In this document: one piece after another, positions 5,196 through 31,877 of the stretch
Numbering within the stretch: position 1 is the stretch's first letter
How the letters are laid out: every line of letters starts with the position of its first letter
From: Clostridia bacterium
Lineage (GTDB): Bacteria; Bacillota; Clostridia; TANB77; CAG-508
DNA length: 39,327 bases
Direction: 5' to 3'
NCBI GenBank assembly: GCA_017528375.1
Contig: JAFXOY010000020.1
Location: forward strand, 1-39,327
Translations under genes and position numbers: made by a program
The notes under the pieces: generated by a model
What the model was told of the DNA's origin: nothing
The model's database searches: none
The model's input: the letters and a program-made list of their open reading frames with translations, nothing else

Positions 5196-6431
5196 ATGAT
5201 AAGTGAAGAACAAATAGAATTATTAGTTGAAAGACTAATTGATAGAATAGAAGAAGCAAATACCTATTTTCTAATGAAAATGGGTTCTTCTATTAAAAAA
5301 ATAAGAGAATTAACACCAACACAAGCACAACAACTTGTGAATATCTTAAAATATGGTGGCGATTATGAAGATATTATTAAAGAAATATCTAAATATACTA
5401 ACTTAAATATAAAAGATATTGATGATATATTCTCTAATTACGCCAAAAAAGACCAGCTGTTCTACGAAAAGTTCTACCAGTATAGAAATATACCTTTTGT
5501 AGAATACGAGCAAAATGAGGCATTAAAACGTCAAACAAAGGCACTTGCGAACATAGTTAAGAATGAAATGTATAATTTCACTCGTGCAAATGTGTTAGGC
5601 TATACTATTCGTGATATAAATGGTCGAGTTCAATTCATGGGATTAAGAGAAACTTATAATCGTGTACTTGATGAGGCTTTGTTAAATGTCGGCACTGGAA
5701 AAGAAACATTTGATTCTGCTATGACTAGAATACTTAAAGACATTGGTGGGAGTGGTTTAAAGACTATTGAATATGCTAGTGGACGTTCAATGAGATTAGA
5801 TAGTGCAGTTCGTATGAATTTAAAAAGCAGATTAAGAGAACTACACAATGAAAATCAAAAGTTATTAGGTGCTGAATTTGATGCTGACGGTTATGAAATA
5901 AGCGTTCATAGTAATCCAGCAATAGACCACGAGCAAGTTCAAGGTAGGCAATTCTCAATTGCTGAATACGATAGATTAAATAGTGGGCTTGAAGCAAAAG
6001 ATTATAAAGGTAATGTTTATACACTAGATCACGATGGCAAAAATGGTTATCGTCCAATAAGCGAAATGAATTGCTACCACTATATATTTAGTATTGTATT
6101 AGGTATAAGTGAACCTGAATATAGCGACAAACAACTTAAAGAAATAATTGATAGCAATAATAAAGGTTTTGAATTTGAAGGTAAGCGTTATACTAATTAT
6201 GAAGGAACACAACTTCAAAGAAACCTAGAACGTGCAATTAGAGAACAAAAAGACACACAAATACTAGCCAAAGCAAGTGGCAACAATGAATTAGTAGGAG
6301 AAGCACAACAAAGAATTACACAACTAACACACAAATACAATGAATTATCTAAAATATCAGGATTACCTACAAAAGCACAAAGGCTTCGTGTAAGTGGCTA
6401 CAAAAAAGTTGCAAAAAGCAAATTAAAGTGA
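5196..6431 (+). CDS. Minor head protein (Phage_min_cap2)
   Basis: 411 residues with AGGAGG at 5181-5186. It matches Phage_min_cap2-type minor capsid proteins: the 'NVLGYTIRDINGRVQFM' region, the 'SAVRMNLKSRLRELHNENQ' helix, and the 'VHSNPAIDHEQVQGRQFS' and 'PISEMNCYHYIF' motifs of the MuF-like domain. In SPP1-like phages this class is packaged or portal-associated and aids head assembly or DNA ejection. The stop TGA also forms part of the extended -10 (TGATATAAT) of the next promoter. Confidence 0.9.
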   Translation: MISEEQIELLVERLIDRIEEANTYFLMKMGSSIKKIRELTPTQAQQLVNILKYGGDYEDIIKEISKYTNLNIKDIDDIFSNYAKKDQLFYEKFYQYRNIPFVEYEQNEALKRQTKALANIVKNEMYNFTRANVLGYTIRDINGRVQFMGLRETYNRVLDEALLNVGTGKETFDSAMTRILKDIGGSGLKTIEYASGRSMRLDSAVRMNLKSRLRELHNENQKLLGAEFDADGYEISVHSNPAIDHEQVQGRQFSIAEYDRLNSGLEAKDYKGNVYTLDHDGKNGYRPISEMNCYHYIFSIVLGISEPEYSDKQLKEIIDSNNKGFEFEGKRYTNYEGTQLQRNLERAIREQKDTQILAKASGNNELVGEAQQRITQLTHKYNELSKISGLPTKAQRLRVSGYKKVAKSKLK

Positions 6432-6437
6432 TATAAT
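6409..6437 (+). promoter_or_regulatory. Sigma-A promoter of the giant RNA
   Basis: TTGCAA (6409-6414), 17 bp, TATAAT (6432-6437), extended -10 TG at 6429-6430. It lies over the 3' end of the minor head gene and predicts RNA starting near G6444. Confidence 0.8.
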
Positions 6438-6443
6438 TAAATT

Positions 6444-7034
6444 GCGACTACGAGAGTGATATACTCGTAGGCAAATATCAAAATTATTGTGTTACCTTTA
6501 TAGGTAGCATTGAGTAGATATATTATAGTTCCACCTATTTAGGAGAAAGATAATATTAGCAATAGTATTATGTATAATGCTGTTTTATATCTATTCAATG
6601 GTGCTTATAATAGGCACTTCTTTCTTGGAGAAACAATAACACTATCTTTTATAGGTAGTGTACTGATGATATATAAAACAATTCGTCCATTAAAGGTTAT
6701 CTATAAAGAGTAAGATGTAGGGTATATAGATTAGACGGAACGCATCCTAATTGGGATTAATTAACCCATAAGCCTTTATATCATTAGTACAGTATCTATA
6801 ATTAGATATGAACCCTGAATTGGTAGTTTGAGGCTGTAATGACAGATAAACTCACTCACATATCTATTAGATACAAACAAGACCATAGAAATCTCAAAAG
6901 AGTAAGTTATGGCAATAATGCATAGTGGAAACACTATTTCATACACTTCGTAATCCTGAAACATAGGTTGCTTTAATTAGCACGGTAGGGAGTAATGTGG
7001 TGTATGTGAGAACATAGAAATATGTTCTTTTTTT
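6444..7034 (+). ncRNA. Giant structured phage RNA, ROOL-like (about 590 nt)
   Basis: A stand-alone unit with its own promoter (6409-6437) and terminator (7009-7034) and no credible ORF. Local hairpins are dense: CTACGAG/CTCGTAG (6448-6454/6464-6470) inside TTGC/GCAA; GTTACC/GGTAGC (6491-6508); ACACTATCT/AGGTAGTGT (6639-6661); TATCTA/TAGATA (6793-6808); AGTTT/AAACT around CTGT/ACAG (6825-6852); CCATA/TATGG (6883-6912) around CTC/GAG; ATAGTG-GAAA-CACTAT with a GNRA loop (6922-6937); and a long-range ATACAC/GTGTAT (6941-6946/7000-7005) closing a multibranch domain. Length, phage setting and low-GC Firmicute context fit ROOL (roughly 580 nt on average), an RNA reported to form RNA-only multimeric cages. 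GOLLD is longer (about 800 nt). I cannot align it to the family model, so a new ornate class is possible. Confidence 0.7.
7009..7034 (+). terminator. Intrinsic terminator of the giant RNA
   Basis: Perfect 8-bp stem AGAACATA/TATGTTCT (7009-7016/7021-7028), GAAA loop, T7 run. It ends the unit that starts near 6444. Confidence 0.9.
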
Positions 7035-7035
7035 A

Positions 7036-7064
7036 TTGACTATTATATAATTATATGATAATAT
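7036..7064 (+). promoter_or_regulatory. Sigma-A promoter of glycosylase operon
   Basis: TTGACT (7036-7041), 17 bp, TAATAT (7059-7064), TG at 7056-7057. It abuts the preceding terminator and drives the genes from 7088 on. Confidence 0.7.
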
Positions 7065-7087
7065 GATTATAGAAAAGAGGTGAGATG

Positions 7088-7504
7088 ATGCGTTTGTGGC
7101 ATTATAAATTGATTCCATATCTACCAAAAGATATGTTGGTAAGTCAATGGAGAGAATGTATAGCTATTAAAAGACAATGGGAAAAAGGAACATTAAAACA
7201 TAGGTTGGTTAGTTATGTTATGGATTATGCTAAAATCTATTTTATGAATTATGTTATAGATGTAATAACTGAAATGGATAATAGACAAATAAATTATCAA
7301 AGTAAGTATTTCTATGAAATATGTGATTTTTGTCAATCATTTGGCGGTTCAGGTCAAATAAATTACAAAGAACACAACAATAGATACTTAACACAATGCT
7401 ATTACAACTTGCAAGAAAAATATGATCGTGGAATCATTACAGAAGAAGAATGGCAAAAGATAGATGAATATTACACAAGAGAGGTTATGGGTTATGGAAA
7501 TTAA
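7088..7504 (+). CDS. Pyrimidine dimer DNA glycosylase-like protein
   Basis: 138 residues. There are two adjacent ATGs (7085, 7088); the GAGGTG at 7077-7082 fits the second. The start MRLWHYKLIPYLPKDMLVSQ, followed by WRECIAIK, is the signature of the Pyr_excise family, homologous to T4 endonuclease V, which cuts the glycosidic bond at UV-made cyclobutane dimers and nicks the site. The C-terminal half (CYYNLQEKYDRGIITEEEWQKIDEYY) is helical. It probably repairs phage DNA. It sits first in an accessory operon right after the giant RNA, not with replication genes. Substrate not proven by sequence. Confidence 0.8.
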   Translation: MRLWHYKLIPYLPKDMLVSQWRECIAIKRQWEKGTLKHRLVSYVMDYAKIYFMNYVIDVITEMDNRQINYQSKYFYEICDFCQSFGGSGQINYKEHNNRYLTQCYYNLQEKYDRGIITEEEWQKIDEYYTREVMGYGN

Positions 7505-31151: not shown

Positions 31152-31166
31152 AAAATATGATATAAT
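31138..31166 (+). promoter_or_regulatory. Sigma-A promoter of GIY-YIG endonuclease
   Basis: TTGAAG (31138-31143), 17 bp, TATAAT (31161-31166), TG at 31158-31159. Nearly the same -10 region as the HNH gene's promoter. Confidence 0.7.
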
Positions 31167-31171
31167 ATATT

Positions 31172-31280
31172 TGTCTAGGTAGAAAGAGTGTTTAATGATA
31201 TGTAGGACTACCTAGACAATAATCCTATGTATCATTAAGCACTTTTTCTTTACAATTTAAAGACAAAAGGTGGTGATATA
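31172..31280 (+). promoter_or_regulatory. Switch-like leader of GIY-YIG endonuclease
   Basis: A long stem of 25 pairs (31182-31206 with 31224-31248; three G-U in the core and one nearer the base) ends in TTTTTC-TTT like a terminator. Its loop has CTACCTAGACA (31208-31218), which can pair perfectly with TGTCTAGGTAG (31172-31182), or through CTACCT (31208-31213) with AGGTGG (31268-31273), the ribosome site. These pairings exclude each other in part, so the leader could switch translation or termination. Confidence 0.65.
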
Positions 31281-31877
31281 TTGGAAGAACATAATTACAC
31301 AGTTTATATGCACATTTGTCCTAATGGTAAAAAATATATTGGTATAACTAAACAATTACCTGAAAAAAGATGGAAAAAAGGTGATGGTTATAGGACACAA
31401 AAATATTTTAAAAGAGCAATACAAAAATATAGTTGGAATAATATACAACATATTATATTATTTAAAAATCTTACAAAAGAAGAAGCTTGCAATAAAGAAA
31501 TTGAACTAATAAAAAAATATAGGACTAATAATTATAAATATGGTTATAATGTTTCTTCTGGTGGAGATGGAGCAAATGGTGTAATAATAAGTGAAAGACA
31601 AAAAGAAATATTAAGAAAAGCATTAAAAGGAAATAAAAATGCAAAAGGTTATAAGCATACTAAAGAAGAATGTAAAAAAATGAAATTAGCAAAATTAGGC
31701 AAACCAAATATAAAATTAAGTAAGCGTGTATTATGTATAGAAACAAATAAAGAATATCCAAGTGTAGCAGAAGCACGAAGACAAACAAAAGTCAATCATA
31801 TAGATCAAGTTTGTAGAGGTGAAAGAAACTATGCTGGAATGATAGACAATGTAAAATTACATTGGAAATATATTTAA
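31281..31877 (+). CDS. GIY-YIG homing endonuclease
   Basis: 198 residues, TTG start, AAAGGTGG 8 bases upstream. N-terminal GIY-YIG nuclease 'YTVYMHICPNGKKYIGIT' with 'YFKRAIQKYSWNNIQHIILF' and 'EACNKEIELIKKYRT'; then NUMOD3-like 'GNKNAKGYKHTKEECKKMKL' and a C-terminal NUMOD1-like DNA-binding part 'VLCIETNKEYPSVAEARRQT'. It cuts DNA at a specific site to spread itself. It is a free-standing insertion between the nuclease-ATPase and the SSB-like gene, with its own promoter and folded leader. Confidence 0.9.
   Translation: MEEHNYTVYMHICPNGKKYIGITKQLPEKRWKKGDGYRTQKYFKRAIQKYSWNNIQHIILFKNLTKEEACNKEIELIKKYRTNNYKYGYNVSSGGDGANGVIISERQKEILRKALKGNKNAKGYKHTKEECKKMKLAKLGKPNIKLSKRVLCIETNKEYPSVAEARRQTKVNHIDQVCRGERNYAGMIDNVKLHWKYI

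Follow-up and report, generated by a model that had tools for sequence, protein, structure and literature searches.

Two tandem copies of an undescribed RNA module, each enclosing a variable cassette, form an RNA gene in a phage head region

Background

In a 39,327-nt stretch of Clostridia bacterium DNA (contig JAFXOY010000020.1, hereafter the window), a phage minor head gene (5196-6431, PF06152) is followed by a structured stretch of the plus strand, and the locus raises the question of what kind of RNA is encoded there and what it might do for the phage. A preliminary description had proposed a stand-alone giant RNA, a ROOL candidate in view of its length, or else a new class if neither ROOL nor GOLLD fitted. 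According to PMC12286853, ROOL is phage-borne, is known from the rumen and often lies near tRNA islands, and GOLLD is a large phage RNA, covered by Rfam, that sometimes holds tRNAs in its linker and is often found near tRNA islands as well.

Results

Borders and fold of the RNA gene

The gap between the minor head gene and the DNA-repair gene is indeed free of plus-strand ORFs of 60 aa or more (6431-7085); two minus-strand ORFs of 62 aa (6776-6964 and 6939-7127) overlap the stretch. A hidden or decayed gene was rejected, since there is no plus-strand ORF and it is RNA pairing that is conserved in the relatives. Both proposed borders are present. The extended -10 promoter (TTGCAA-17-TATAAT with TG, 6409-6437, plus strand) overlaps the end of the minor head gene, and a similar box recurs in relatives (see below). 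The intrinsic terminator (GAACATA-GAAA-TATGTTC followed by T7, A+T-rich, 7010-7034, plus strand) was read from the sequence, and its stem occurs in at least three further loci (L038, L041, L055); it is absent from the list of our terminator scanner because the scanner demands three G-C pairs. Promoter-like matches in general were no commoner in the region than in shuffles (6 versus 6.1). The stretch folds at -157 kcal/mol (z -5.7, with none of 100 shuffles equally good), so the earlier claim of structure beyond chance holds; the long-range closing pair that was part of that claim is not conserved in relatives. The stretch 6409-7034 is a stand-alone structured RNA gene in a phage head region, as had been supposed. 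The gene directly 3' of it, still in the head region, encodes a PF03013 pyrimidine dimer DNA glycosylase (7085-7504).

Comparison with known RNA families

The whole window was scanned against all 4227 families of Rfam 15 without a match at the gathering cut-offs, and the same scan of 36 of the 60 protein-related loci (see below) gave none either. A permissive scan of 6380-7090 returned eight matches with E up to 10, all far below the cut-offs; the best of them, SraG on the minus strand (E 0.085), was taken as chance. Neither of the two models named in the preliminary description matched: the window holds no ROOL (RF03087, gathering score 99.1 bits), nor is ROOL among the E <= 10 matches of 6380-7090, and GOLLD is missing from both scans. 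Among 49 module-bearing records the ROOL model does detect true ROOLs in two (E 4e-38 and 2e-40, 162 and 170 bits), which makes its negative result in the window informative. We therefore discarded ROOL and GOLLD identity on the basis of these scans, and the alternative of a new class is the one that stands, the stretch fitting no Rfam 15 family. The tRNA model (RF00005) found no cloverleaf in the window, and it does match some of the relatives' cassettes. Long antisense or guide action was set aside as well, there being no other match in the own genome at E <= 0.001 and two weak ones at E <= 0.1. Among cultured phages, the window RNA found short or terminator-like matches only, and the module of one relative found none.

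Anatomy of the module

The RNA gene contains two tandem copies of an undescribed module, at 6485-6631 and 6636-6821. From 5' to 3', each module consists of hairpin A, the 5' strand of a helix P1, a variable insert (the cassette) at the tip of P1, the 3' strand of P1, and hairpin B, an anatomy of which we are nearly certain. There are two common chassis types, distinguished by P1 (GAGUAGAUA/UAUCUAUUC in type 1 and UACUGAUGAUAU/AUAUCAUUAGUA in type 2), and others with quite different P1. The actual unit is not a giant RNA but a module of some 90-260 nt, present in varying copy number; one to five consecutive modules were seen in relatives, and total length, which had suggested ROOL, is not a conserved property.

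All parts lie on the plus strand. A 5' leader with an internal hairpin at 6448-6470 occupies 6438-6490 and differs in sequence among relatives. In module 1, hairpin A (GUUACC-UUUAUA-GGUAGC, 6491-6508) is recognised by stem covariation among modules, and the two strands of its type 1 P1 (6509-6522, core GAGUAGAUA, and 6586-6599) by the match to a covariance model and by P1 covariation. They enclose a cassette (6523-6585) that has weak BLAST matches only among the fetched loci (best E 5e-4). Hairpin B follows (GUGC-UUAUAAUAG-GCAC, 6601-6617), recognised by loop complementarity across modules; its loop CUUAUAA (6604-6610) can pair with the hairpin A loop UUAUAGG (6498-6504). In module 2, hairpin A (CACUAUC-UUUUAUA-GGUAGUG, 6640-6660) rests on covariation, the 5' strand of the type 2 P1 (6661-6677, core UACUGAUGAUAU) on the model match, the 3' strand (6775-6791) on the model match and P1 covariation, and hairpin B (6793-6808) on its covariation and loop complementarity, loop B UCUAUAA (6795-6801) being pairable with loop A UUAUAGG (6649-6655). 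The cassette of module 2 (6678-6774) has no relative among the fetched loci by BLAST (best E 0.14). The 3' domain between the modules and the terminator (6822-7009) was considered as a third module; this was rejected, since the module model gives no match there. Its positions 6876-6914 are identical over 39 nt to a stretch behind the L150 module, which indicates that the domain holds a shared tail element.

Covariation of the chassis

The covariance model (R1), built from 38 modules, gives E 6e-18 for module 1 and 2.5e-15 for module 2, values that follow by construction because both modules are rows of the R1 alignment. Independent support comes from a finder that uses structure only, which recovered both window modules, and from their loops, which are complementary at 7 of 7 positions (G-U allowed). 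The structure-only search has a high false-positive rate (1414 hits in real versus 906 in shuffled sequence for stems of at least 4 bp, and 284 versus 40 for 7 bp), and it was therefore used for leads and some P1 variants only.

Two alignments were built. Alignment A1 has 42 rows (31 of 33 diverse modules, window module 2, one L036 module and nine structure-finder rows; the antisense image and one L101 module were left out). Alignment A2 has 38, namely A1 minus three misaligned rows and one L152 row, six of its rows coming from the structure finder. Across the 38 modules, both partners have changed in 24 of 29 pairs, and the covariation score is 0.438, compared with 0.199 in shuffled and 0.06-0.12 in slid alignments. 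The four helices covary also when the six structure-picked rows are removed: in 1000 strand swaps, the observed value was reached for none of them. Hairpin A is paired in 60% of the cells of this alignment, a low figure that is partly due to MAFFT having set loops of unequal length in one register. A larger set of 179 modules from all loci was cut out by consensus-arm patterns with up to two substitutions, so that variation in those letters is limited; it includes the minus-strand antisense image in L049 and a certain overlap among loci from the same contig. When 178 of the 179 modules were tested by chassis type, hairpins A and B each covaried independently, with 0 of 500 permutations equal in both types. 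The chassis pairing is thus conserved while the P1 sequence and the cassette change. The preliminary description had named the lack of a covariance-model hit together with missing covariation, or a degraded ORF in homologues, as grounds for giving up its proposal; the relatives conserve the RNA pairing instead.

A knot between the two hairpin loops

In 154 of the 179 modules, all 7 positions of loop A (UUAUAGG) have a complementary partner in loop B (CYUAUAA). When partners were permuted, a mean of 139 modules was still fully complementary, as is understandable with both loops conserved, and none of 5000 permutations had as few mismatches as the real pairs. Covarying loop pairs were found as well, among them UUAAUGG/CUAUUAA (L036, L053), UUACAGG/CUUGUAA (L162) and UUUUAGG/UUUAAAA (L143). 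This complementarity means that a kissing-loop knot can lock the base of P1.

The same segments could also serve a two-state switch, in which loop A-loop B pairing belongs to an extended P1 hairpin whose formation precludes hairpins A and B. Nested folding of single sequences favours this plain extended hairpin, in which the loops lengthen P1, over the knot, and it is the minimum-free-energy fold. However, hairpin A and hairpin B each show covariation of their own in the two types. The additional helix found only in the extended form lacks it in type 2, where 452 of 500 permutations were as good, and has barely any in type 1 (2 of 500, with a tiny effect of 3.91 versus 3.89 pairs). The nested alternative is disfavoured for this reason, and we consider a switch very improbable.

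Cassettes and tRNA-like inserts

Cassettes range from 11 to 177 nt (median 71), and the 179 modules fall into 148 cassette families by BLAST, with inserts shorter than 25 nt counted as singletons. Four families occur in both chassis types (L033/L053/L096 with L145; L165/L208/L216 with one L175 module; L108 with L204; and L212 with another L175 module), which indicates that cassettes can recombine separately from the chassis. In the L033 family we noted by eye a compensatory change from GAAGU/ACUUC to GAUGU/ACAUC, so at least that cassette appears to be structured. Also by eye, otherwise unlike cassettes begin with a sequence like AUAUAAAA and close with one like CCUUUAUAU, which hints at a sub-frame within the chassis; this was seen in cassettes of L153, L204, L211, L212 and L216 and at 6670-6784 of the window.

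tRNA matches are present in 25 of 49 records. They lie inside a module in nine of these, seven above and two below the cut-off; three of the seven represent one shared cassette, and the module of L205 rests on the structure finder. L192 carries a complete tRNA-Trp within its module, and L094 a tRNA-Glu that uses P1 as its acceptor stem. T-arm-like hairpins were found in 17 of 179 inserts, as against a mean of 2.3 (maximum 7) in shuffled, none in reversed and one in reverse-complemented inserts. At the cassette 3' end, such a hairpin with 5 bp and a 7-nt loop occurs in 19 of 126 cases (4.4 +- 2.2 when shuffled), and among loop lengths of 3 to 12 nt none stands out like 7 nt. No trace of a tRNA was found in the two window cassettes or in most others. 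Some module-bearing contigs also carry phage tRNA clusters, with nine genes in L114 (3804-4686) and seven in L167 (2226-2771).

Distribution and gene neighbourhood

Sixty viral loci were selected through the minor head protein, several of which end near that gene. In some of them, short islands with sharp borders are shared with the window RNA, and the sequence between these islands is unrelated. Scans with island patterns yielded 102 and 48 stretches from IMG/VR and a further 15 from genome contigs, the titles of the latter including rumen, omasum and pig samples; of these 15, the model recognises a module in 13 (all except L227 and L233). In 19 of the 60 minor-head loci the model finds a plus-strand module at E <= 0.01; among these, four (L034, L036, L079 and L082) contributed rows to the model alignment, and the same module is present in L081 and L085. 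At E <= 1e-4 the model matches 41 of 42 module-bearing records, with tandem runs of up to five modules (G196); R1 missed the L053 module (G197) that the pattern scan had given. Among genomes of relatives, 5 of 192 have the module at E <= 0.001 with the own genome included (4 of 191 without it). At E <= 1e-4 and with stricter filters, none of 390 genomes of the class and none of 397 of the phylum had it besides the own genome.

Modules sit in gaps between genes. With ORFs of 60 aa or more called mechanically, both flanking ORFs run in the direction of the module at 82 of 138 sites and both oppose it at 3, the other 53 being mixed or having a missing flank. Flanks of the pattern-found set were scanned for protein families (84 of 95 upstream, 89 of 105 downstream), and the 25 commonest families were considered. 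Those recognised most often are a minor head family (8 of 84), a transcriptional regulator (6), HNH endonucleases (5) and portal (4) upstream, and a scaffolding family (7 of 89) and the terminase large subunit (5) downstream. Head and packaging genes are thus frequent neighbours, though many flanks carry no listed name. True ROOLs adjoin modules at L144:834-1435 and in L247 (G225:14908-15499), at a distance of about 160 nt in G217 and abutting in G225, after three tandem modules.

Transcription signals

Of 131 module sites, 25 have a box like TG.TATAATTWAATTG (two substitutions allowed) no more than 250 nt upstream, 15 of them in minor-head-chosen and 9 in pattern-found loci; the background, from 2000 random draws on one strand of pattern-found loci, is about 1%. 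A terminator-like site follows 57 of the 131 sites, and 16 have both signals. In some loci an inserted gene, presumably of the homing-endonuclease (HNH) type, separates the minor head gene from the RNA (L033:1243-1818, L041:5272-5847, and also before the L053 module). In at least these three loci the box is found at the 3' end of the inserted gene and not of the minor head gene, so it seems to travel with the RNA. Given that a promoter is seen at only 25 sites and a promoter with a terminator at 16, many modules may ride in operon mRNAs.

Discussion

The best explanation overall, which we prefer without holding it to be probable, is that the exchangeable cassettes carried by the tandem chassis modules act in trans. 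The RNA would be made during infection, in the window as a transcript of its own, and the knot would let every cassette fold as a domain of its own with no free ends. In this reading the cassettes would work in trans, as stable RNAs for display or as decoys that keep host RNA-handling proteins occupied; tRNA-like cassettes would most plausibly occupy tRNA-directed factors or defence nucleases, and cassette turnover would track changing targets. For the display of cargo in trans we claim a tentative case, and with still more reserve we suggest as the function a phage RNA chassis that presents exchangeable cargo RNAs, which might be decoys for host factors that handle RNA. A somewhat unlikely extension is an RNA counterpart of an anti-defence island, in which exchanged effector RNAs, some of them tRNA mimics, would each neutralise a different host factor and arrays would combine several. 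Counter-defence directed at tRNA-related targets in particular seems to us doubtful.

A cis-acting element of late operons has to be taken seriously as a rival, because most sites (106 of 131) are without the conserved promoter, even if we think it on the unlikely side. Modules would then act on the polycistronic mRNA, by punctuating, stabilising or processing it, and thereby determine gene dosage (scaffold and capsid versus portal and terminase). Their position in gaps, their tendency to follow gene direction and the minor head, portal, scaffold and terminase proteins among recognisable flanks fit such a role, as does the fact that some modules stop just 5' of a start codon (L156, L174, L107). 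However, a cis element has no need of cassettes that differ and exchange, or of embedded tRNAs, and the window copy has a promoter and terminator of its own. The tRNAs could instead point to a carrier of phage tRNAs, with cassettes that began as tRNAs in the chassis, are released or degraded, and are mostly remnants. The whole tRNA-Trp of L192, the P1 acceptor stem of the L094 tRNA-Glu and the tRNA matches in about half of the records agree with this; but most cassettes lack any tRNA trace, the compensatory changes seen by eye in the L033/L053/L096/L145 family are not expected from decay, and a P1 that serves as acceptor stem leaves no free CCA end. We regard the carrier as quite improbable.

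An RNA for virion assembly or packaging, acting in a ring as in phi29 or in a ROOL/GOLLD-like cage through loop contacts between copies, is suggested by the head-region position here and in part of the relatives, by the kissing-type loops (UUAUAA of loop B is self-complementary) and by the two true ROOLs that directly adjoin modules. It is nonetheless improbable. At E <= 0.01, 41 of the 60 minor-head loci, some of them truncated, are without a module, so that the RNA seems dispensable; the cassettes are highly diverse, and no Rfam RNA matched. The match of loops A and B is moreover specific within each module, which fits pairing within one molecule.

Several known systems resemble this RNA in part. 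Like ROOL, it is a structured phage RNA, and the total length of the window gene is similar, but it lacks a ROOL match and consists of a repeated module, with variable length and exchangeable inserts. With GOLLD it shares tRNAs that sometimes lie within a phage RNA, in the GOLLD linker and here in module cassettes; here, however, what encloses the tRNA or other insert is a small chassis, itself repeated, and not one giant RNA. ToxI of type III toxin-antitoxin systems likewise forms tandem arrays of small pseudoknotted RNAs and works in trans, but its repeats are near-identical and are not known to have a large exchangeable insert, whereas our modules have such an insert and no Rfam match. The phi29 packaging RNA has kissing loops, as the modules appear to have, yet 41 of 60 loci with related head proteins gave no module, and the modules carry variable cargo and match no Rfam family. 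We know of no counterpart to the plan of a frame plus cassette. In searches of the open full-text literature we met no description of such modules.

The module represents a recurrent and strongly covarying RNA family without an Rfam 15 match, and it offers a handle on the open question of what structured RNAs do in the neighbourhood of phage tRNAs and ROOLs. Because the frame stays constant while the cargo changes, each cassette is a natural experiment, and the frame could also be of use as a scaffold in expressing folded RNAs.

Elsewhere in the window, at 31160-31270 and before an ORF at 31281, interleaved long complementary segments were noted by eye (GTCTAGGTAG..CTACCTAGAC across AGAAAGAGTGTTTAATGATA..TATCATTAAGCACTTTTTCTTT), and this looks like another knotted or alternative-stem RNA element.
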